Below, piece by piece: positions 1,808 to 29,619 of a DNA stretch of 33,597 bases (positions are counted from its first letter, which is position 1; every line of letters starts with the position of its first letter). The notes below the pieces were generated by a model that was given only the letters and a program-made list of their open reading frames with translations, had not been told where the DNA came from and made no database searches. Made by a program: the position numbers and the translations under genes. The stretch lies in NCBI GenBank assembly GCA_016182525.1, contig JACPGL010000001.1:1-33597 (forward strand). Reading direction: 5' to 3'. The DNA is from Candidatus Kerfeldbacteria bacterium (GTDB lineage: Bacteria; Patescibacteriota; Patescibacteriia; JACPL01).

Positions 1808-1858
1808 CTCCAAGACAAGATCCGCTCTTGTGAACCGAGAACGGATCTTGTCTTGGAG
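1808..1858 (-). terminator. 17-bp perfect hairpin after tRNA-Thr
   Basis: CTCCAAGACAAGATCCG pairs perfectly with its complement across a 17-nt loop. On the minus strand the 5' arm begins inside the tRNA 3' end and includes the encoded CCA. There is no T-run, so it could equally be a processing signal. The arm carries the AGATCCG motif that recurs with GTTCTC at 23.68 and 26.11-26.18 kb. The rest of 1593-1807 holds no gene; it contains a small GC-rich imperfect repeat near 1660-1770. Confidence 0.65.
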
Positions 1859-2838: not shown

Positions 2839-3267
2839 ATGGAAAAAGCGTCCACACCAACCTCCGCATCCCCCCACGTCATTCTTCTTGTCGAAGATGA
2901 GCGGATTCTGTTGAATTTGTATACCACAACGCTTGAACGCGCCGGCTATACCGTACGCACTGCCGAGAATGTTGCGCAAGCATTGGAGGCGGTGAAAGAC
3001 GCGACTCCTGACTTGATTCTTCTCGATCTTTTAATCCCCAACAAAACGATCGACCCGCTTGATTTTCATAAACGAGGCGGATTTTTGTTCTTTCGTAAGA
3101 TTCGGGGCGACAAGCGTTTTGACGATACTCCTATTATTGTGTTCACGAATCTGGATAGTCCGGATGATCGGAAGCAAGCAAAAGAATTCAGAGCTCGCGA
3201 TTTTATTGTGAAGGCGAATTACTCTCCGAAAGATATTATCGCGATTGTTGAAAAAGAATTGCAGTAA
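2839..3267 (+). CDS. Stand-alone response regulator receiver protein
   Basis: 142 aa. After a short Thr/Pro/Ser-rich N-terminus comes one receiver domain: the acidic pair in LLVEDE, phospho-acceptor Asp in LILLDLL, Thr in IVFTN and Lys in FIVKA. There is no output domain, so it acts by protein-protein contact. An insert after the Asp (IPNKTIDPLDFHKRGG) lengthens the beta3-alpha3 loop relative to CheY. The start is the ATG at 2839, preceded at 7 nt by a -10 box. No kinase is adjacent; the only kinase in the window is at 28.5 kb. Confidence 0.88.
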   Translation: MEKASTPTSASPHVILLVEDERILLNLYTTTLERAGYTVRTAENVAQALEAVKDATPDLILLDLLIPNKTIDPLDFHKRGGFLFFRKIRGDKRFDDTPIIVFTNLDSPDDRKQAKEFRARDFIVKANYSPKDIIAIVEKELQ

Positions 3268-3302
3268 GAGAAGGTGAGGGGATCAGCGTAAGCTGTTTTT
3301 TT

Positions 3303-3374
3303 GCGGGCGTCGTATAATGGTTATTATACGTGCTTCCCAAGCATGAGACGGCGGTTCGATTCCGCTCGCCCGCT
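3303..3374 (+). tRNA. tRNA-Gly (anticodon CCC)
   Basis: Cloverleaf: acceptor GCGGGCG/CGCCCGC, anticodon loop TTCCCAA (CCC, reading GGG), T-arm GGCGG TTCGATT CCGCT. The discriminator is T and no CCA is encoded. A strong hairpin follows 6 nt later. Confidence 0.95.
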
Positions 3375-3380
3375 CAATTG

Positions 3381-3419
3381 TCGGAGGAGGAAACCCTATG
3401 GAGGGGTTTCCTCCTCCGA
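3381..3419 (+). terminator. 16-bp perfect hairpin after tRNA-Gly
   Basis: TCGGAGGAGGAAACCC pairs perfectly with its complement around a 7-nt loop. It most likely ends tRNA-Gly transcription, although no T-run follows. Confidence 0.75.
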
Positions 3420-3445
3420 TGACCTCTTCCTTCCAATGTGGCTTC

Positions 3446-3513
3446 GGGCACAGGCAAAGCCTGATGCCCTCGGCAATACAATGGCTCGGGACGCAGGCGA
3501 AGCCTGACGTCCC
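3446..3513 (+). repeat. Two tandem, covarying hairpins
   Basis: Two ~26-nt hairpins follow each other: outer stem, inner stem CAGGC/GCCTG, a bulged A on the 3' side and a 3-nt loop (AAA or GAA). The outer stem is GGGCA/TGCCC in the first and GGGACG/CGTCCC in the second, so both arms changed together. They lie in the leader region of the RlpA-like gene. Confidence 0.7.
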
Positions 3514-3540
3514 TCGCAAGAAGATAACAAATTTTAGTCT

Positions 3541-4683
3541 ATGAAATATCGACTTATCTTTGTAATCATGATTGGCGTACTCCTTCCTGTTGTGAATCCG
3601 GCGAGGGCGCAAGAGAAAACGATTGTTGCCCTGACAGGTGAAAATCTGGAATCAGGAGTGACTGCCACGACTGACGATGGAACATTCTCGGTTCGTTTTT
3701 CACCGAAGGTGATTCAAAAAGCGGGGAGTATTTCTCTCCGACGTCTCACGGAGGTGCAGTTCCCTGACAAGCCGGGAGCGACACGTGTGGGCGACTATTA
3801 CCACTATTCAGTGAACGTCGAAGGAGTCGGGATGTTGAAGCGTCCACTCTTTATCACCACAACATTTGAAGGAAATCCCTATAATCTTGTCCGCTTGCAC
3901 TATTACAATAAAACGCTTCAGGAGTGGAAACCGCTGCCATCCCGAGTGAATCTCGAAGAGCATACAGTAGTGTCAACATCTCCGTTTCCGACCGTCACAC
4001 TTGCGGCGTTTGAAGAGTCGGCGCTCCGGATTGATTTTTCAAAACAGGATTTTACGAAGGATGTGTCCCTTGAGAGCCCGGATGGGAACTTTGCGCTTGG
4101 GTTTCCGGCAGGCGCGCTGGACACGAGCGCGCGAGTGGTGTTGAAGCGGTTTGATCTTCTCGATGATGACACGACGATTCCGAAAAATGCGAAAATGGTC
4201 AGCCCTGCAATCTATGAATTTGGTCTTCGGTCGGACGAACCCCTTACGCTGAACGGTTTGTTGCCTGTGCGATTGTCGGTTGAGTCGACAAGCGCCTCTT
4301 CGAAGTCGATGTATGTTTTGGATAAGCGTTCAGACACATGGCGAAAAATCACTTCAAAGTATGATGCGAATACAGGAGTTGTTACTGCGCACGTCCCGTT
4401 TCTCTATGCGCCGCTTGCTGTTTTTGAAGAGCAGACAAGCTTTGAAGGTACGGCATCGTGGTATCGCGGAAATGCACAGGATGATGCAGCGACGAATCTT
4501 TTTCCTCTTGGCACAAAAGTGAAAGTGACGAATCTTGATACAGGTGCATCAACAATCGTCAATATCGTTTCCACATGGGCTGGCACCTCTCGCCACATTA
4601 TTGATTTGACGTTTTCCGCCTTTTCCACAATCGCAAGTCCGTGGAAAGGTGTTGCTCGCGTGCGCGTCGAGCACATTGAGTGA
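3541..4683 (+). CDS. Secreted protein with C-terminal RlpA-like double-psi beta-barrel
   Basis: 380 aa. Residues 1-23 are a signal peptide ending NPARAQ. The middle (about 30-300) is beta-rich with two similar halves, each containing a DGTFSVRFSP- or DGNFALGFPAGAL-like strand (ZU5-like in appearance). The last ~80 residues (GTASWYRG...FPLGTKVKVTNL...HIIDLTFSAF) match the RlpA/DPBB fold. In peptidoglycan-cleaving RlpA the loop is NDRGP; here it is IVSTWAG, so the catalytic Asp is missing and the domain is probably structural or binding. Acts outside the cytoplasmic membrane. The FtsEX genes follow, which suits a cell-wall or division role (inference). Confidence 0.75.
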   Translation: MKYRLIFVIMIGVLLPVVNPARAQEKTIVALTGENLESGVTATTDDGTFSVRFSPKVIQKAGSISLRRLTEVQFPDKPGATRVGDYYHYSVNVEGVGMLKRPLFITTTFEGNPYNLVRLHYYNKTLQEWKPLPSRVNLEEHTVVSTSPFPTVTLAAFEESALRIDFSKQDFTKDVSLESPDGNFALGFPAGALDTSARVVLKRFDLLDDDTTIPKNAKMVSPAIYEFGLRSDEPLTLNGLLPVRLSVESTSASSKSMYVLDKRSDTWRKITSKYDANTGVVTAHVPFLYAPLAVFEEQTSFEGTASWYRGNAQDDAATNLFPLGTKVKVTNLDTGASTIVNIVSTWAGTSRHIIDLTFSAFSTIASPWKGVARVRVEHIE

Positions 4684-12563: not shown

Positions 12564-12580
12564 TTTCGCACGGCGTTCCG

Positions 12581-12618
12581 GTCATTGCGAGCGAGCGACA
12601 GCTCGCGAAGCAATCCCT
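12581..12618. repeat. Interspersed palindromic repeat, second copy
   Basis: GTCATTGCGAGCGAGCG through CTCGCGAAGCAATCCC; same family as 4738-4764 with an extra GCGAGC unit giving a better hairpin. It lies just outside the left edge of island 2. Confidence 0.7.
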
Positions 12619-12633
12619 CTTAAACAAAAGGGA

Positions 12634-12671
12634 ACCCCAGGGTGCACGCGCTGTCGCAAGCACCCTGGGTT
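12634..12671 (-). terminator. Terminator of island 2 lipoprotein-like gene
   Basis: CCCAGGGTGC and GCACCCTGGG pair over a 14-nt loop; on the minus strand GGTTCCCTTTTGTTT follows, giving a weak T-rich tail. The 12564-12760 gap also holds smaller hairpins (GACGCTTCGCGTC) and no ORF. Confidence 0.65.
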
Positions 12672-12760
12672 GCTCTTCCTCGAGATGACGCGAAGCGTCA
12701 GTCCTCGTGGCCGGGTGCCCTGAAGGTAGCCGGTCGAAAGATCTCGCTATAGACGCCGCG

Positions 12761-13288
12761 TCACTCGATGACGAACATGTGGACATGAACGGTCTCTCCC
12801 TCGGTCTCTCCCTGGCTAGGGACACGCGCCCTGACGGTTGCTGGAAGCTCACCGGCCGTATCTGTCGCGATCATGGTCGCTGGGATCAGCAGGCTTGTCT
12901 CCTGGGTGACGAGCACCCATTCGACAAACGACCGAATGTGAAGCGCACCGTATTCCACACGCGCGGGGTACACCCAGCCGGTACTCGCGAGCGGGCGCAT
13001 CACCCATTGAGTGTGTGTTGGCGAAGCCAGGACGACGAGTTTCCCCATGCCCCGCAGCGGGTTGAGCCGCTGGGAAAGTTCCCCGAACAGCAGGATCGGC
13101 GAGTTGGCGAGCAACTCCCCAAGGATGCGATCGCCAAGCACCTCGTCCTCCACAACCTCGGCCGTGATCTCCTCGCCGACGGCTTTTTTGGTGAGCGGGG
13201 GTTCTTCGTACGACTTCGTCGGTGCGCGCGCCGAGCAGGCCGCGCATACCGCTGTCACGAGCGCGATGGCGAGGGTTGATCGCATCAT
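12761..13288 (-). CDS. Short secreted protein, possible lipoprotein (island 2)
   Basis: 175 aa. MMRSTLAIALVTAVCAACSARA is a signal peptide; a Cys is present but the lipobox (VCAAC) is poor, and ACSARA could be a signal peptidase I site. The mature part has a charged start (KSYEEPPLTKKAVGEEITAEVVED) and a beta-rich body with an ILLFGELSQRLNPLRGMGKLVVL segment. No family recognised. A good Shine-Dalgarno (GGAGGTG, 5 nt before ATG) and a 7-bp leader hairpin (CCGGGAG/CTCTCGG) precede it. Codon use is GC-rich. It is divergent from the dehydrogenase fusion gene. Confidence 0.72.
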   Translation of the reverse strand: MMRSTLAIALVTAVCAACSARAPTKSYEEPPLTKKAVGEEITAEVVEDEVLGDRILGELLANSPILLFGELSQRLNPLRGMGKLVVLASPTHTQWVMRPLASTGWVYPARVEYGALHIRSFVEWVLVTQETSLLIPATMIATDTAGELPATVRARVPSQGETEGETVHVHMFVIE

Positions 13289-13382
13289 CGCTTCACCTCC
13301 AGTTTGCCGAGAGCGAATTCTCCCGGGCGATTGCTTTTAGGGTGCAGGATTTTTCAGCTCTTGTCAAACGCTTTTTCCGAGT

Positions 13383-13440
13383 TTGACGAAACAAGCGGTT
13401 TTCGGGTAGAGTAGGGCCACTCTCTCGGGTGGTCCGAGAG
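13383..13440 (+). promoter_or_regulatory. Promoter and leader hairpin of the HADH-ECH gene
   Basis: TTGACG, 18 nt, TAGAGT (13407-13412). About 9 nt after the -10 box a perfect 7-bp hairpin begins (CTCTCGG GTGGT CCGAGAG, 13422-13440). The start codon is 26 nt later. Island 4 has the same TAGAGT box at 27506. The divergent gene has a leader hairpin with nearly the same arms. Confidence 0.65.
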
Positions 13441-13465
13441 CTGTCTCTTGAAAGGTTGGTTCACA

Positions 13466-15463
13466 ATGGCACGACTGCCATTCACACGGATCGGGATTGC
13501 CGGAGCCGGAGTCATCGGCTCGGGCAACTTGGCCGGACTGGGCGTGCGTCTTGCCGAACTCGGCGTCACTGCCGAGAGCGGCGGCCGCATCGTCCTATAC
13601 GACAAGTTCGATGCTGCGATCATTGCGGCGATGGGCAAGGCCCGGGATTCGATCGACTTCAGGATCACGAAGCGCCGGCTCAAGCCCGAGATTCGCGATG
13701 TGTTCGGCGACATGGTTCGCCAGACGACAACGCTTGCGGATCTCGCCGAGTGCGACTTGGTGCTCGAGTCGCTGCCGGAGGATCGCGATCTCAAGCGTCA
13801 GTTCTACAGCGCGCTTCGCACGCACACCAAGGCGCCCGCGCTCTCAACCACGAGCGCGATTCCGCCGGCACATATCGGCGCGGATGGGCTTGCCCATCCG
13901 TTCACGCCCTGCGACCGGCGGTGGTTCATCGAGTTCGCCGGGCCAGCGGCCGCGCGCCTCTGGTTCCAGCGGATGGGATGGACGTGCTACGACGTGAAAC
14001 CGGAAATCCCGGGCTTCGCAATCGACCCGCTCCTCTCGGCGCTCGTGGTCGAGGCGGTGTGTATGGTCGAAGAAGGTCTCGGCACCGTCGCCGAAGTGAA
14101 CGACTGGTTCGACCAGCTCTTCGGCGGCTCGGGTCCGTTCAATGTCATGGACATCACGAAGGGCAACCCGCTCGTCGTGAGTGTGCTCACCAGCATGTAT
14201 CAGCACCTGGAAGCCTGGGAGAATGCCTGGTTTGCGTCGCCGAAGAAGCTCATCGACCAGGGCACCACGCTTTGGCTCGATCCCAAGCGGCCAGCTGCGG
14301 CTCTGCCGTCTCCGGATGTCCTCATGGAGATCGAAGACCGCGTCCTCGCGACATTCGCGTGGGCACAGGAGCGGGTGGATCGGGAGGGCATTCTCCGCGG
14401 CGGTCTCGGAGCCTGGAACGATCTCACCAGGAGAGCGCTCGGGTTCAAGGCCGGTGTGGGAGATATCCTCAACACGCACGAGCCAGGTCGGATCCAGCGC
14501 GCAGCGAGGCGACACAGCGCTGAAGGCATGCACTTCCAACCCTCTCCTCCTGACCATCAGGGTTCGGATCCGTGTTCGTCTGTCGATCCTCGGCGCGCCG
14601 TGCTCACCCCGTTCAGGCACGATGTGTCGGTGCGGGAGGAGGGCGGGGTCGCGATCATCACGATCACGCGGCCCGAGCAGATGAACGCCATCCGGCGTCG
14701 CACGCTTCTCGAGCTCGCGGAGGTGGTGGCAGGTCTGTCACCTAACCTCGCCGGCGCTGTGTTCACCGGGGAAGGAGGGATCTTGGCTGGCGCCGACGTG
14801 GAGCTGTTTGCCAAGATGAAGGCCGAACAGCTGCTCGGGTACATCCTGCTCGGCCAGAGCGTGTTCGCAAGTATCCAGGGTCTGCCGATCCCGACGATCG
14901 CGGCCTATGACGGGTTCGCGCTCGGCGGAGGGGCAGAACTCGGCGCGGCCTGCGACGCGCGCATCATGACCCCGTGGTCTATGTTCGGCCAGCCGGAGGT
15001 GACCCTCGGGCTCATCCCCGGGTTCGGCGGAACAGTCCGCACGTTCGACTGGGTCAGCGCGGAGAAGGGGCGGTTCTTGCTCGAGACAGGCAAGAAGATC
15101 CTCGCCCCCTTGGCGCTCGAGATCGGGTGGGCGACCGTGCTCACTGATGACGACGTGGTGGCCGAGGCCTGCCGCATGCTCCGAGAGCAGCGGGTGCCGA
15201 AGACGTCGCTCGCGCCCGACGTCCTCACGTCCGAGGTCGATGACTCCGAGGCGCCGGTCGCCGCCGAACGACCCGAGCTGGGGCTCTCGAGGGCGATCCT
15301 GGGGATTCTCTCGCGACACCTCGAGGTGATCAACGGAGTAGGGCGGGAGGATGCCCTTCGCCGCGAACCGTTCGCGGTGATGAAGTGCTATCGGACGAAC
15401 GACTTCCAGGAGGGCATCCGTGCCTTCCTGGAGAAGCGCAAGCCCGTGTGGCAACACCGGTAG
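13466..15463 (+). CDS. Bifunctional 3-hydroxyacyl-CoA dehydrogenase / enoyl-CoA hydratase
   Basis: 665 aa. Residues ~1-360: 3-hydroxyacyl-CoA dehydrogenase, with NAD Rossmann motif GIAGAGVIGSGN, LAECDLVLESLPED, TTSAIPP, catalytic His in GLAHPFTP with Glu in FIEF, and the C-terminal domain from IPGFAIDPLL; the usual Asn of DTPGFxxNR is Asp here. Residues ~385-665: crotonase fold, with GGILAGADVELF as the oxyanion/CoA region and both catalytic Glu positions kept (GGGAELGAACD and GQPEVTLGLIPGFGG). The order is dehydrogenase then hydratase, as in archaeal fusions such as Msed_0399 of Metallosphaera and opposite to FadB/FadJ. It would interconvert enoyl-, 3-hydroxy- and 3-oxoacyl-CoA in the cytoplasm. 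No thiolase, acyl-CoA dehydrogenase or ligase is nearby. Strong GC-rich codon bias; CPR usually lack this pathway. Confidence 0.85.
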   Translation: MARLPFTRIGIAGAGVIGSGNLAGLGVRLAELGVTAESGGRIVLYDKFDAAIIAAMGKARDSIDFRITKRRLKPEIRDVFGDMVRQTTTLADLAECDLVLESLPEDRDLKRQFYSALRTHTKAPALSTTSAIPPAHIGADGLAHPFTPCDRRWFIEFAGPAAARLWFQRMGWTCYDVKPEIPGFAIDPLLSALVVEAVCMVEEGLGTVAEVNDWFDQLFGGSGPFNVMDITKGNPLVVSVLTSMYQHLEAWENAWFASPKKLIDQGTTLWLDPKRPAAALPSPDVLMEIEDRVLATFAWAQERVDREGILRGGLGAWNDLTRRALGFKAGVGDILNTHEPGRIQRAARRHSAEGMHFQPSPPDHQGSDPCSSVDPRRAVLTPFRHDVSVREEGGVAIITITRPEQMNAIRRRTLLELAEVVAGLSPNLAGAVFTGEGGILAGADVELFAKMKAEQLLGYILLGQSVFASIQGLPIPTIAAYDGFALGGGAELGAACDARIMTPWSMFGQPEVTLGLIPGFGGTVRTFDWVSAEKGRFLLETGKKILAPLALEIGWATVLTDDDVVAEACRMLREQRVPKTSLAPDVLTSEVDDSEAPVAAERPELGLSRAILGILSRHLEVINGVGREDALRREPFAVMKCYRTNDFQEGIRAFLEKRKPVWQHR

Positions 15464-15484
15464 GAGGACCGGTTGGAGGGAACC

Positions 15485-15509
15485 GGCGTGCCGCATCATG
15501 CGGCACGCC
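15485..15509 (+). terminator. 10-bp perfect hairpin ending island 2
   Basis: GGCGTGCCGC ATCAT GCGGCACGCC, 21 nt after the fusion gene's stop. A smaller ACCGG/ACCGG-type repeat precedes it. Base composition changes right after it. Confidence 0.8.
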
Positions 15510-15548
15510 GGGATCCTATTTCTCGCGTTTCCGAGAACGCAAGAATAT

Positions 15549-22115: not shown

Positions 22116-22121
22116 GGTGTC

Positions 22122-22137
22122 CAAAGCTTAGCTTTTG
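22122..22137 (+). terminator. Short hairpin after korB
   Basis: CAAAGC TTA GCTTTTG, 6-bp stem with a short T tract in the 3' arm, just before the next ATG at 22145. Weak. Confidence 0.4.
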
Positions 22138-22144
22138 CCAAAGT

Positions 22145-23590
22145 ATGCAGCTATCGCGTATTCGATCAATCCCGTGGCTGAAACAAAAAGAGCGGGATTT
22201 TGACATTGCTCTTGAGTCAATTTATATTCAAGGGTTTCGTCGAAAATATTTTCAGAAGTACGGTTTTGATTTTTCGCTGGATACGATTGCAAAAAGTGAT
22301 GGCAAGATTTATTTTGATGCTCGAGATATGGAGGCAGCGCGGTCTCTCTTTTTGAAGAAAGGCAAAGGCCTTGCTGCATACGCGAATAAACTCACGCAGC
22401 GGTTTTTGAAGAGTGCGAAAGATTACGAAACATTTCTTGCAAAGCATGCAGATTTTCCGTATAACCGCCTGCTGCGTCGCGATCTCCGCAAAGTGTACAA
22501 TGACGACATGGAGCATCTGTATCGCCTCATCCCATACTCCTTTCTTATTTCTGTAACGCTTGAAGATGTTGCGTGTGAAATTATCCCACAGTATCTTTCG
22601 AAAGTAGGATCGAAAGCCGTTGCGTTGTACATGCAGCTCATGGTCGCACCAAAGCTCAATCGAACCGCAGAGGAGTATCGTGCTCGTCTTCGGCTGGCGC
22701 AGATGTTTCAGAAAACCGGCTCCTCGCCACAATTCAAACGCGCGATTCAAAACCATCGCGCGCACTATGATTGGATGGTGTGTTATGCGCCGTTCGATGC
22801 TCTTCTCACCGAAGAAGCGCTTGTTGAAGATATCCGTAAGCTCGCAGTGAAAAATCCAAAGCGTACGCTTCGATTGATTGAACAGACTCGAAACGATTCT
22901 TTGCACGAAGCAAAAAGAATTTTTCGTGAAGCTCATCTTCCTGCACACATTGGTGCGCTTGTTCGAGTGATGCAACAGAATGTGTGGGTTCGGACGTACC
23001 GACGCGAACTTATGAGTTACGGTTTTGCGAAAATGCGCCCGATGTATCAGGCGATTGCTGGCGCACTTCAGATGAATCTTCAAGATTTTCCGCATACTGA
23101 GAGTGTCGAGATTGCCGAGATGCTTGTGACTGGCAAACGTCTTTCTGCGGCAACGATTCGCACACGATCAAAGGATTTTGCCTTTGTACAACTGAATGAC
23201 ACGCATGTGCTGCTCGCTGGTGTTCGAGCAAAGCGATTGACGGTGAAGGGAGCCACGCTCGATGCCACAGACGAACTCCATGGCAGGTGTGCGTTTCCGG
23301 GCAGTGTTCAGGGGAGCGTTACTGTCATTCGGAAAGCAGAGGAGCTTCACCACTTTCGGAAAGGAGATATTCTTGTCGCCTTCGGTGTGAATACATGGAT
23401 GATGCCAATTATTCAAAAGTGTTCAGCGATCGTGACGGAGGAAGGAGGGGTGTTAACACATATTGCCAATATCGCGCGCGAGTATCGAAAACCGTGTATT
23501 GTTGGAGTGAAAGGCGCGACATCGGTCTTGCGGACAGGGGATTCTATAGAGGTTAATGCCGATGTCGGAACGGTGAAAAAGCTCCAATGA
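22145..23590 (+). CDS. PEP-utilizing swivelling-domain protein (PEP synthase-like C-part)
   Basis: 481 aa. The N-terminal ~370 residues are helix-rich and charged with no recognised family. The C-terminal ~100 residues are a phosphohistidine swivelling domain: GRCAFPGSVQGSVTVI, DILVAFGVNTWMMPIIQKCSAIVTEEGGVLTHIANIAREYRKPCIVGV, with the phospho-His in GGVLTHIA. The ATP-binding and PEP-binding domains of PEP synthase are both missing, so it is not an active PpsA alone; it may carry phosphate between partners or join a separate nucleotide-binding subunit (inference). Such stand-alone proteins are common in CPR. It follows korB by 29 nt. Confidence 0.72.
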   Translation: MQLSRIRSIPWLKQKERDFDIALESIYIQGFRRKYFQKYGFDFSLDTIAKSDGKIYFDARDMEAARSLFLKKGKGLAAYANKLTQRFLKSAKDYETFLAKHADFPYNRLLRRDLRKVYNDDMEHLYRLIPYSFLISVTLEDVACEIIPQYLSKVGSKAVALYMQLMVAPKLNRTAEEYRARLRLAQMFQKTGSSPQFKRAIQNHRAHYDWMVCYAPFDALLTEEALVEDIRKLAVKNPKRTLRLIEQTRNDSLHEAKRIFREAHLPAHIGALVRVMQQNVWVRTYRRELMSYGFAKMRPMYQAIAGALQMNLQDFPHTESVEIAEMLVTGKRLSAATIRTRSKDFAFVQLNDTHVLLAGVRAKRLTVKGATLDATDELHGRCAFPGSVQGSVTVIRKAEELHHFRKGDILVAFGVNTWMMPIIQKCSAIVTEEGGVLTHIANIAREYRKPCIVGVKGATSVLRTGDSIEVNADVGTVKKLQ

Positions 23591-23650: not shown

Positions 23651-23705
23651 TGTGGATGCCGGGCTCCCTAATCCTCGAAAAACGCGATCCGTTCTCGTTT
23701 TTTTA
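23651..23705. repeat. Solitary 3' half-terminator plus junction sequence (left copy)
   Basis: TGTGGATGCCGGGCTCC followed by TCCTCGAAAAACG and CGATCCGTTCTCG, then a T-run. The same order occurs at 26073-26120 after the complete hairpin. Here the left hairpin arm is missing. 23706-23832 holds no gene; a possible promoter (TTGGAA, 17 nt, TACAAG) lies near 23733-23761. Confidence 0.6.
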
Positions 23706-23832
23706 TTGAACGTTAGCCAAGATTTGAGTGCTTCCCTTGGAATGTAGCGAGAAGTGTGGTACAAGAGCGGGTTATTGTTCTGGGTTTTTGTGAGCAAGAT
23801 TCGTTGCGGATGGGCGAATTTCGATCGCAAAA

Positions 23833-23903
23833 GCACGGAATGTTCCTTTCACCACAACAACTGACCCTCCGTTTTTCCGTGCACGGTTGGTCTTGGAGAA
23901 GCT
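23833..23903 (+). promoter_or_regulatory. Conserved structured leader of beta-helix gene 1
   Basis: Starts GCACGGAATGTTCCTTTCAC and ends TTGGAGAAGCT before the ATG. GCACGGAA can pair with TTCCGTGC (23875-23882), or CCGT (23869-23872) with ACGG (23883-23886); the two folds exclude each other. A near-identical leader precedes beta-helix gene 2. GGAG is the ribosome site. Confidence 0.6.
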
Positions 23904-24629
23904 ATGCTGCTTCGACACTGGCTCGTTTCGCTCCTCGCAGGTTTCATAGCTGCGTTGTTCGCGACCCCCGCTCCGGCCCGCACGATCGACGTGCCGGGCG
24001 ACTGCGGCTCGATCCAGGTCGCCATCGACATCGCGGTCGACGGCGACACGGTCTTTGTCCACATCTCGGACGATCCGTACGCCGAGGATCTGGAGATTAA
24101 CGGCAAGTCGATTACCCTCCGGGGCGAGTCGCAGCTCGAAGTCGCGGTCGATGGGACTCTGAATGTCGACGTCAGCATGTGGCAGGAGGTGAGCGTCGAG
24201 GAGATGCAGATCTTCGGTGGCATCTCGGCAACCGGAAGCCGCGGCGGCGCGGTTCTGCGCCATCTCCACATCCTCGATCACTTCGAGGCGTCCGTGGGCG
24301 GCGGGTATGTCACCCTCCTCGATGTGTGCTCACTCTCGCTCGACTCCGGCGAGCATGCCGAGGTCGGACCGCTCACCAACGTGACGGCCAACGGACTGCT
24401 CGTTCTCGGCCGCACCGATCCTCCGCGATTCGCATTCCGGAATCGGGGCGGTTCGCTCACGTTCACGGGGAGCTCCCTCTCCGGGTTCCAGATCGGCGTC
24501 GTGAATGTCGAGGGAGGAGTCACAACCTTCGACGCAACGACGACCTTCAGCGACATCGCGGCGCCGCTCCTCAATCTCTGCGGCTCCGGCGACATCGCCG
24601 GCGTCTCATGGTTCAACTGTATGCCCTAG
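23904..24629 (+). CDS. Secreted right-handed beta-helix-type protein 1 (island 3)
   Basis: 241 aa. Signal peptide MLLRHWLVSLLAGFIAALFATPAPA. The mature start TIDVPGDCGSIQVAIDIAVDGDTVFV matches the entry motif of secreted parallel beta-helix proteins (PTIQAAIDAAxDGDTVxV), followed by NGKSITLRGES and many short strands. It is shorter than usual and lacks the NC-rich ladder repeats seen in gene 2, so it may be a partial or divergent copy. It ends in FNCMP without a sorting domain. GC-rich codons, Shine-Dalgarno GGAG. Terminator and a second related gene follow. Ligand unknown. Confidence 0.72.
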   Translation: MLLRHWLVSLLAGFIAALFATPAPARTIDVPGDCGSIQVAIDIAVDGDTVFVHISDDPYAEDLEINGKSITLRGESQLEVAVDGTLNVDVSMWQEVSVEEMQIFGGISATGSRGGAVLRHLHILDHFEASVGGGYVTLLDVCSLSLDSGEHAEVGPLTNVTANGLLVLGRTDPPRFAFRNRGGSLTFTGSSLSGFQIGVVNVEGGVTTFDATTTFSDIAAPLLNLCGSGDIAGVSWFNCMP

Positions 24630-24650
24630 CGATCTGCTAGGTGCGGGAGG

Positions 24651-24689
24651 GATCCACGGGTGGTCGCATCACACGCGACCACCCGGATC
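24651..24689 (+). terminator. Strong hairpin between the two beta-helix genes
   Basis: GATCC acg GGTGGTCGC, 7-nt loop, GCGACCACC c GGATC: 14 bp with small internal loops. Then come CTTTCC/GGAAAG and AAGAGGAA/TTCCTCTT hairpins (24699-24740). Confidence 0.75.
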
Positions 24690-24743
24690 TCACATCACTT
24701 TCCGTTCTTATGGAAAGAGGAAATGTTCTTCCTCTTGCCATCA

Positions 24744-24812
24744 GCACGGAAGTTCCTTTCACTACAGACGTGATCAACCGTTTCCGTGCACGGTTGTTTA
24801 CTGGAGTTCGGC
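24744..24812 (+). promoter_or_regulatory. Conserved structured leader of beta-helix gene 2
   Basis: GCACGGAAGTTCCTTTCACTAC through TTTCCGTGCACGGTTG and CTGGAG. Alignable with 23833-23903 over its length. GCACGGAA/TTCCGTGC competes with AACCGT/ACGGTT. Confidence 0.6.
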
Positions 24813-25967
24813 ATGAACGAAAAGCAGGTGGACCGGTTCTTGGCGGCCGTTGTGGTCGCTGTGTTCTCCACTCCCGCCTTCGCCCGCACGATCGACGTGC
24901 CGGGAGACTACCCACTGATCCAGTCCGCGATCGACGTGGCCGCGGACGGCGACACCGTCCTCGCTGCGCCAGGGACATATACCGAGGACAATATCTCGTT
25001 CCTCGGCAAGTCGATCGTGGTTCGCAGCGAAGCGCCTACCGACTCTTCGATCGTCAAGCTCACGACCGTCCAGGGCACGGGCAACGACTCGCTGTTTGTG
25101 TTTGACTCGGGAGAGCACTGGAAGAGCGTTCTCGACGGCTTCACCGTGATCAACGGGAGAGTGGGAATCTCTCTGAACAACGCATCACCGATCATTCGGA
25201 ACTGTCGGATCGTTCGCAACGGTTCCCCGGGGGACTACTGGTCCAGTGGGGTCCGGGCATCGTATACAGCCTTGCAGCTCGAGAGCTGCCTCATCGGCTG
25301 GAATGGAGGAATGGAAGGCGCAGGTCTGAACTTCTTCAACTCGTCACCAGTGGTTCTGAACTGCCAGATCGTCACCAACGAGTGCACAAGCAGCGGAGCC
25401 GGTATCTATGCCGGATATGGACACCTGACGGTGACCAACTGTCGGATCAGTGGGAATACGGGCGCACAGTGGGGATCCGCTCTGTACATGGGGAGCGGCA
25501 TTCTGACTATGGAGAATTGTCTGCTTCTGGACAATGTGACGACCGATTCAGGTGCGCTGTTGCTCTCGAGCGACAGTCAGGGGTTCCTGCAGAACTGCAC
25601 TGTCGCGGGGAATTCGGGAGGAGGACTCTACGTCTCCTACTCACAGATGGAGGTGGTGAACACCATCCTCTGGGGGAACGGCGTGGAGATCATGTGGGGT
25701 TATGGAGGAGGCGTCGGTGTGTCCTACTCCGACATCGACGGCTGGTGGCCGGGGATGGGGAACATCGACGCCGATCCGCTCTTCACGAGCGCGAGAGGCT
25801 TCGACTACCTTCTCGGTGTCAACTCGCCGGCGATCGACGCCGGGGATCCGTCCATCCCGGACGGCATCTCCGACTCGCACCCGCGCTGGCCCGCGTGGTA
25901 CCCCAACGGCGCCCGCTCGGACATGGGCGCCTACGGCGGGCCGAACAACGACGATTGGCTTCGCTAA
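24813..25967 (+). CDS. Secreted right-handed beta-helix protein 2 (island 3)
   Basis: 384 aa from the ATG at 24813. Signal peptide about 1-24 (FLAAVVVAVFSTPAFA). TIDVPGDYPLIQSAIDVAADGDTVLAAPGTYTEDNISFLGKSIVV is the classic entry to the helix. A ladder of short repeats follows (SPIIRNCRIV, SPVVLNCQIV, HLTVTNCRIS, ILTMENCLLL, SQGFLQNCTV, QMEVVNTILW), each one coil, with stacked Asn-Cys. DADPLFTSARGFDYLLGVNSPAIDAGDPS and SDMGAYGGPNNDDW form the typical C-terminal cap. Family members bind or cleave polysaccharide; no catalytic residues can be assigned. There is no PNPFNP sorting domain. Three hairpins follow. Confidence 0.82.
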   Translation: MNEKQVDRFLAAVVVAVFSTPAFARTIDVPGDYPLIQSAIDVAADGDTVLAAPGTYTEDNISFLGKSIVVRSEAPTDSSIVKLTTVQGTGNDSLFVFDSGEHWKSVLDGFTVINGRVGISLNNASPIIRNCRIVRNGSPGDYWSSGVRASYTALQLESCLIGWNGGMEGAGLNFFNSSPVVLNCQIVTNECTSSGAGIYAGYGHLTVTNCRISGNTGAQWGSALYMGSGILTMENCLLLDNVTTDSGALLLSSDSQGFLQNCTVAGNSGGGLYVSYSQMEVVNTILWGNGVEIMWGYGGGVGVSYSDIDGWWPGMGNIDADPLFTSARGFDYLLGVNSPAIDAGDPSIPDGISDSHPRWPAWYPNGARSDMGAYGGPNNDDWLR

Positions 25968-25973
25968 TCGGGT

Positions 25974-26014
25974 ATGTGGGGAGTGAATCCCCACATCCCC
26001 TGAAGGAGCAGGGG
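25974..26014 (+). terminator. Two adjacent hairpins after beta-helix gene 2
   Basis: ATGTGGGGA GTGAA TCCCCACAT (9 bp) then CCCCT...AGGGG (5 bp), starting 6 nt after the stop codon. Confidence 0.75.
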
Positions 26015-26044
26015 AAACTCCGATAGGGAGAAGAGAGGGGCAAA

Positions 26045-26089
26045 GAGCCCGGCTGAAGCACACGAAAGACGTGTGTGGACGCCGGGCTC
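26045..26089. terminator. Two-stem hairpin at the right end of island 3
   Basis: GAGCCCGGC, CACAC, 7-nt loop, GTGTG, GCCGGGCTC. Its right arm plus ~40 bp of following sequence reappears at 23651-23705 without the left arm. Confidence 0.75.
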
Positions 26090-26105
26090 CTCAAATTCCT
26101 GAAAA

Positions 26106-26195
26106 GCGAGATCCGTTCTCATTCAAACTGTGGATAACTGGATCCACTCTCACCCGAACTGTGGATAACGAGAACGGATCTGGTTATCCACAGTT
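26106..26195. repeat. Three perfect DnaA boxes in nested inverted repeats
   Basis: AACTGTGGATAAC occurs at 26126-26138 and 26157-26169 and inverted at 26183-26195; each contains the consensus DnaA box TTATCCACA. The last two form a 13-bp perfect hairpin with GAGAACGGATCTG in its loop. That loop can pair instead with AGATCCGTTCTC at about 26110. The third box overlaps the NDH-2 stop codon. Confidence 0.75.
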
Positions 26196-28467: not shown

Positions 28468-29619
28468 ATGTTCAAAACATTTCGGCGACGAACGCACGCG
28501 GATATTGATGATGCTATTCTGTCGTCTCTTGGGGAGGCTGTTGTTGCGTTTGATACGAACAAAAAATGCATCGTCTTTAATCGCGAAGCCGAACGCTTGC
28601 TTGTGCGAAAACAAAAAGAGGCGATCGGTCATCCCGCTCGCTTGGTTTTGCCACTGTTTACGGAAAAGCGAAAACCACTTTCAGATTCACAATTTCCCAT
28701 TATTCGTGTTCTTGCATCCGGCCATACGTATCGTTCAAAAACTCCTCCGAATATTTTTGTCAAAAGCACTCAGGGACATATTTTTCCGATCGATCTTACT
28801 GTCACTCCCATGAAAAGTGGAACGCGACTTCTCGGCGCGGTCGCCGTTTTTCAAGATAGAACCGTCCATACCGAAATGGATCAAATGAAATCAGATTTTG
28901 TGTCGCTTGTGTCGCACCAACTCCGCACTCCGCTCTCATCGATTCGATGGTTTTTGGAAATTCTCGCTCGAGAAGTGAAAGGGCAGCTGAATGAAGAGCA
29001 AGAACGTTTCGTCGCATCGGCGCGCGACGGGGTGGCACGAATGAACACTCTTATCAACACTCTTCTCAATATCACAAGACTCGAATCCGGCAGAATGAAA
29101 GTCAGTCCGCGGGCCACACGCTTAAGCTCGTTCCTTCAATCGCTTGTCAAGGAAATGGACATGGTTGCTCGCGCGCGAAATGTGAAGCTCACATTTACAA
29201 AGAAAATCACCGGCAGGGACACGCTCAACCTTGATCGTTCGTTGCTTACAGAAGTGGTGAGTAATCTTCTCTCGAACGCGATGATGTACGCTGATCCAAA
29301 AAAGAAAGAGAAAATTGTGGACGTCGCTCTTCATGTCAGCAAAGGAAAAGTTTCCATCTCCATTCGAGATAACGGGATTGGAATCCCTGACAAAGATCAA
29401 TTCCATCTGTTTGAGAAATTTCACCGAGCCGAAAATGCGCAAGCACTCATGACATCCGGCAATGGCCTCGGTCTCTATATGGTGAAAAAAATCTTGGACG
29501 ACACGAGTGGACACATTCTGTTTGAATCGGAAGAAGGCAAGGGGACGGCCTTTACGATCATCTTGCCGCGCGCGGGGATGAAAAAACGAGCCGGCACAAG
29601 CACACTCGCACTAAAGTGA
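28468..29619 (+). CDS. Soluble PAS-domain sensor histidine kinase
   Basis: 383 aa from the ATG at 28468. A PAS domain (about 10-120: ILSSLGEAVVAFDTNKKCIVFNREAERLL ... PIDLTVTPMKSGTRLLGAVAVFQDRT), HisKA with phospho-His in FVSLVSHQLRTPLSSIRWFLEIL, HATPase with N-box VVSNLLSNAMMYA, G1 DNGIGIP and G2 GNGLGLYMVKKIL. There are no TM helices, so it senses something in the cytoplasm, directly through PAS. It lies 23 nt before a receiver gene with its own -10 box, which is the probable partner. Confidence 0.92.
   Translation: MFKTFRRRTHADIDDAILSSLGEAVVAFDTNKKCIVFNREAERLLVRKQKEAIGHPARLVLPLFTEKRKPLSDSQFPIIRVLASGHTYRSKTPPNIFVKSTQGHIFPIDLTVTPMKSGTRLLGAVAVFQDRTVHTEMDQMKSDFVSLVSHQLRTPLSSIRWFLEILAREVKGQLNEEQERFVASARDGVARMNTLINTLLNITRLESGRMKVSPRATRLSSFLQSLVKEMDMVARARNVKLTFTKKITGRDTLNLDRSLLTEVVSNLLSNAMMYADPKKKEKIVDVALHVSKGKVSISIRDNGIGIPDKDQFHLFEKFHRAENAQALMTSGNGLGLYMVKKILDDTSGHILFESEEGKGTAFTIILPRAGMKKRAGTSTLALK

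Follow-up and report, generated by a model that had tools for sequence, protein, structure and literature searches.

A dispersed REP family with a RAYT-like transposase gene and a probable local rearrangement at a GC-rich island in Candidatus Kerfeldbacteria

We analyzed a stretch of 33,597 nucleotides (contig JACPGL010000001.1, positions 1 to 33,597; referred to as the window) of a Candidatus Kerfeldbacteria assembly. A sequence is repeated at the two ends of a foreign-looking, two-gene island in this window (island 3). The findings are mainly two. One is a REP family accompanied by a RAYT-like gene, a combination of a type already known; the other is a probable local rearrangement of small extent at island 3. 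The repeated end is probably an ordinary REP copy joined to a fragment of the island's 3′ hairpin, brought there by local duplication or deletion.

Results

The ends of island 3 share a hairpin arm and a REP core

We compared the segments at 23651-23699 and 26074-26123, which lie in direct orientation. Their alignment (51 columns) scored 32, compared to 17 for the best of 2000 shuffles, and the two copies are similar without being identical. The left copy consists of TGTGGATGCCGGGCTCC, 18 nt, and GATCCGTTCTC; the right copy consists of TGTGGACGCCGGGCTCC, about 20 nt, and GATCCGTTCTC. As noted in an earlier sequence-only reading of this DNA, a full hairpin is present at the right end of the island (Table 1). 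Only the right copy has one, as the left arm is absent from 23651-23699 and DNA folding gave no fold there (z +0.4). That reading also saw the right arm and the trailing sequence repeated, without the left arm, before the island, which is correct for a similar copy but not for an identical one. At the right end, the repeat belongs to a longer REP array (to 26195) that reaches the next gene's stop codon.

Table 1. Features of the window discussed in the text
Feature	Position	Strand	Details
REP-1 core pair in hairpin by tRNA-Thr	1808..1858	.	Inverted repeat; core at 1837; tRNA 1854-1929
REP-2 copy, TGTCCAAAGCTTAGCTT	22118..22134	+	Second dispersed repeat
Lone right arm of hairpin, TGTGGATGCCGGGCTCC, without left arm	23651..23667	+	16/17 bases identical to 26074-26090
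Degenerate single REP-1 copy, AAAACGCGATCCGTTCTCG, without GTGG guide	23679..23697	+	Core 65 times in genome; outer conservation to 7 nt
Island 3 gene 1, 241 aa, start like gene 2	23904..24629	+	98-nt stretch 77% like gene 2
Island 3 gene 2, 384 aa, right-handed beta-helix protein	24813..25967	+	PF13229, E=6.7e-19
GC-rich hairpin 3′ of gene 2, GAGCCCGGC...GCCGGGCTC	26045..26089	+	DNA fold -18.4 kcal/mol, z -5.9
REP-1 mosaic array with GATCCGTTCTC and GATCCACTCTC cores, GAGAACGGATC cores in inverted orientation, and three TTATCCACA boxes	26101..26195	+	Fold z -6.1

The trailing part is not an insertion sequence specific to the island. Most of it (AAAANCGAGATCCGTTCTC) is a genome-wide repeat with nothing special to island 3, and its GATCCGTTCTC portion is a REP element with a linked RAYT-like gene. 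Private to the pair is only TGTGGAYGCCGGGCTCC, which lies outside the REP; the extra match of 17 bp was found with a REP core adjoining only at the two island ends. We infer from this restriction that the ends have a shared local ancestry. A genome-wide search for the arm GCCGGGCTCC with a core nearby, which the earlier reading had suggested as a check, returned island 3 only. When pairs of REP flanks were ranked by flank similarity, the island 3 pair came fifth (5/2850). The ends therefore share more than the dispersed repeat, and the sequence makes a left-over or duplicated 3′ end of island 3 plausible. This much of the proposed remnant of an excised cassette survives; excision or insertion of a cassette by the repeat is unlikely.

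The homology starts within the hairpin, and a break at that point would fit. The left copy may have arisen from the island's 3′ end (hairpin arm plus REP) by local duplication, slippage, or unequal recombination, or it could be what a deleted neighboring unit left behind, with one of the break points in the hairpin. The REPs did not necessarily import island 3; in this genome, a distance of 2.4 kb between two REPs calls for no special explanation.

As for the island genes, gene 1 gave zero matches in Pfam. The nearest relatives found for gene 2 are 40 to 45% identical and come from two loci of one Gemmatimonadetes MAG, too distant for us to name a donor. Besides the 98-nt stretch (77%), the two genes (window 23904-25967) have upstream hairpins that are alike; the sequences suggest an old tandem duplication. 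The island lies in the gap between a PEP-utilizing gene and a pyridine-nucleotide oxidoreductase gene. In a search for an empty site, the closest two homologues of the gene on the left of this gap (37% identity) had, within 1.5 kb, no neighbor resembling the gene on its right.

REP-1 copies are palindromic, found throughout the genome, and mostly intergenic

We show that GATCCGTTCTC forms the core of a REP family, here called REP-1, whose palindromic copies are dispersed and lie mostly between genes. The core occurs in 65 exact copies at 38 places in the 1.04-Mb assembly (reversed control, 0), and in 56 other genomes of the same class it is found 0 to 3 times each. Nearly all cores lie inside or at gene gaps. 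Often the copies are paired in inverted orientation or combined with TTATCCACA boxes into mosaic arrays, and about half of the 68 genome sites of TTATCCACA fall within REP-1 arrays by a tally of listed coordinates. Conservation beyond the core declines after 7 nt. Among the 30 intergenic gaps with REP-1, as counted with a crude ORF caller, divergent gene pairs were depleted (1/30, p=0.013) and convergent pairs were enriched (10/30, p=0.02).

GTGG was found at most 12 nt from the core in 17 of the 65 copies (2.3 expected), and GTGGATAAC directly precedes the core in 15/65. The stretch GTGGAT-AACGAGA-ACGGA-TCTCGTT contains a 7-bp hairpin 2 nt past GTGG (fold z -4.7). Under the GT[AG]G rule for REP hairpins (PMC6006769), the GTGGATAAC copies possibly carry a fitting guide, and most REP-1 copies would have none. 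The core occurs in at least four contexts (terminator-like sequences, TTATCCACA arrays, a GGAAATAAGG spacer, and GCCGGC stems), a greater variety than in a textbook REP family. A comparison of a REP-1 20-mer with viral contigs gave no match.

Several further observations concern the repeats. A subfamily of cores lies in GCCGGC-type stems that form near-perfect hairpins of about 48 nt (C25:20901-20932, 22971-23002, and 29568-29599; C10:3758-3789; C34:1321-1352; C49:3751-3782; C54:715-746). Two TTATCCACA boxes 12 bp apart stand outside all REP-1 arrays at C41:1209-1229, perhaps an origin region. A third dispersed repeat, of the GTCATTGCGAGG...CGAAGCAATC type, is seen near some REP-1 copies, at about C25:22910 and C28:2980.

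A Y1 transposase gene lies between inverted REP-1 arrays

The gene RAYT-1 (C61:3750-4436, minus strand) encodes a Y1 (HUH) transposase that matches PF01797 (Y1_Tnp) over the cut-off. It is flanked by two REP-1 arrays in opposite orientation (C61 3672-3761 and 4428-4529). Across 26 RAYT-1 homologues, H97-x-H99 (NH-x-H) and Y157 are invariant. Using a structure model with a mean pLDDT of 83, the best fold match in the PDB was 4er8, the REP-associated tyrosine transposase solved together with a REP hairpin (E=1.4e-6); a phmmer search of the PDB sequences gave zero relatives. The best and only NCBIfam match is NF047646, with 39.8 (RAYT-1) and 31.7 of 80 bits, below a RAYT cut-off that is a calibration rather than a defining trait. 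Because of this score and the weak guide signal, we use the label "RAYT-like." Taken together, the features of REP-1, the inverted arrays around the Y1 gene, and the fold match to 4er8 identify REP-1 and RAYT-1 as a REPtron-like system, of a kind already known.

A second RAYT-like gene, RAYT-2 (C21:6013-6738), is paired with a different palindromic repeat, REP-2, which has about 85 sites (at most 2 mismatches) and lies around the gene. One REP-2 copy is inside RAYT-2, with the reading frame intact. In the class, a RAYT homologue was found in 89 of the 381 genomes searched. Repeats of at least 13 nt were present on both sides of 19/29 homologous loci, compared to 0/29 control loci (p=4e-8). The repeat of one homologue, counted in its own genome, has 19 copies (reversed control, 0), including two pairs around the gene.

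The system resembles the REPtron (RAYT/TnpA-REP with REP/BIME; PMC2817692, PMC6006769, PMC8266576) in its Y1 HUH gene between inverted palindromic intergenic repeats, in its mosaic arrays, and in the presence, within a single genome, of two transposases that each have a different repeat; REP-2 copies inside REP-2's own transposase gene are a further likeness. However, in most of the repeats described here no clear GT[AG]G guide adjoins the stem, the protein is under the NCBIfam RAYT cut-off, there are 65 exact copies, and the host lineage differs. The fold is the same as in the IS200/IS605 transposases (IS608, ISDra2), but here a single-copy gene stands among many noncoding repeats instead of in a two-ended mobile unit. 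By analogy with other bacteria, the HUH transposase would nick and rejoin single-stranded REP hairpins, an activity that is putative for RAYT-1, and such action may have spread REP-1 into gaps 3′ of genes.

REP-1 and the edges of GC-rich segments

The repeat had also been proposed to mark the ends of GC-rich segments. A REP-1 copy stands within 250 bp of 12/62 GC-rich-segment edges, compared to 19/178 other gaps (Fisher p=0.12); the counts thus come close to a placement with no link to such segments. A neighbor of more than 58% GC was present at 37% of REP-1 sites and at 10.5% of random positions, whereas against other gene gaps the figures were 11/30 and 50/191 (p=0.27). Since the enrichment is not significant in the latter comparison, we claim no general link between REP-1 and GC-rich DNA. 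These counts come from a 507-kb sample selected to include every REP-1 site plus other stretches, so that it is no random sampling of half the genome.

One locus fits the proposal. At C28, a GC-rich gene (3089-3778) that matched no family in Pfam or NCBIfam stands between direct repeats of 119 bp (2813-2932 and 3961-4080; 1 mismatch), and these repeats contain a REP-1 array. They appear recent. By eye, part of a terminator-like sequence 5′ of the first array recurs after the array. C28 is the best support for a tie between REPs and foreign genes, and, although a single case, it leaves room for a real link.

Such a tie would be expected if GC-rich genes of foreign origin, together with a hairpin and a REP at the 3′ end, moved as units, through REP-REP recombination or RAYT action, with the left copy at island 3 as an excision scar. 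In addition to C28, the direct orientation of the matching island 3 ends speaks for this explanation, as do direct repeats scoring at least 35 at the ends of 4/29 GC-rich segments compared to 7/194 native gap-to-gap intervals (p=0.04). Conversely, REP-1 is present in only two (C3 and C28) of those four segments; the repeat at C43 reaches into predicted ORFs, and the one at C20 is about 20 bp. The edge enrichment is not significant, and about 38 places in 1.04 Mb yield REP-1 pairs this close by chance. We therefore regard movable REP-flanked cassettes as unlikely. The same low probability applies to the idea that, in this lineage of small genomes, REP arrays served by a RAYT are landing sites for foreign GC-rich genes (island 3 and C28), which would be flanked by direct REP repeats sharing half a hairpin and could be lost again by recombination of one repeat with the other.

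Two other GC-rich segments were observed. One, of 4.2 kb (C25:22997-27171), is bordered on the left by a REP-1 pair and on the right by a REP-2 copy. The other (window 12567-15512; 64% GC) encodes a protein combining 3HCDH_N and ECH domains, and neither REP-1 nor REP-2 was found at its edges.

Discussion

Local duplication or deletion involving an ordinary REP copy and a hairpin fragment remains our preferred explanation of the repeated end. Counting against this reading, the REP identity of the repeat included, are the scarcity of GTGG, the varied contexts of the core, the low NCBIfam score, the lack of PDB relatives in the phmmer search, and the C28 locus.

Two independent REP insertions, with the GCCGGGCTCC arm matching by chance, would be conceivable in a genome that has many REP-1 copies and 5 occurrences of GCCGGGCTCC by itself. 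Yet 16 of 17 bases match, the spacing to the core is nearly equal, and 0/2000 shuffles were as good; in the 507 kb read, the nearest match to the 16-mer of the arm beyond the island 3 pair has 2 mismatches and no adjoining REP. This makes independent insertion very improbable. We give slightly less credit still to the core serving natural transformation as a DNA uptake sequence, of the kind often paired as terminators. The 11-bp core does recur in different hairpins, several of them terminator-like, but it is present in only 65 copies per Mb, almost every one of them inside or adjoining a gap, whereas a high copy number including coding DNA would be expected, and inverted arrays link it to a RAYT-like gene. 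An integron-type cassette with an attC-like hairpin, which would share with island 3 a gene with a 3′ hairpin and direct repeats at its ends, can practically be dismissed, as the assembly (about 79% complete) has no integron integrase over the cut-off, its two tyrosine recombinases score far under it (111.5 and 93.8 of 265 bits), and most of the repeats are unrelated to cassettes.

The supposed excision scar is thereby replaced by a repeat-transposase pair that can be tested. In the open-access literature, we found no paper treating RAYTs in Patescibacteria or Parcubacteria; our searches document RAYT-like genes, mostly adjoining their own repeats, in about one-quarter of the genomes of the class searched. 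If the link between the repeats and the islands is real, it would give a hint of how reduced genomes acquire foreign genes.
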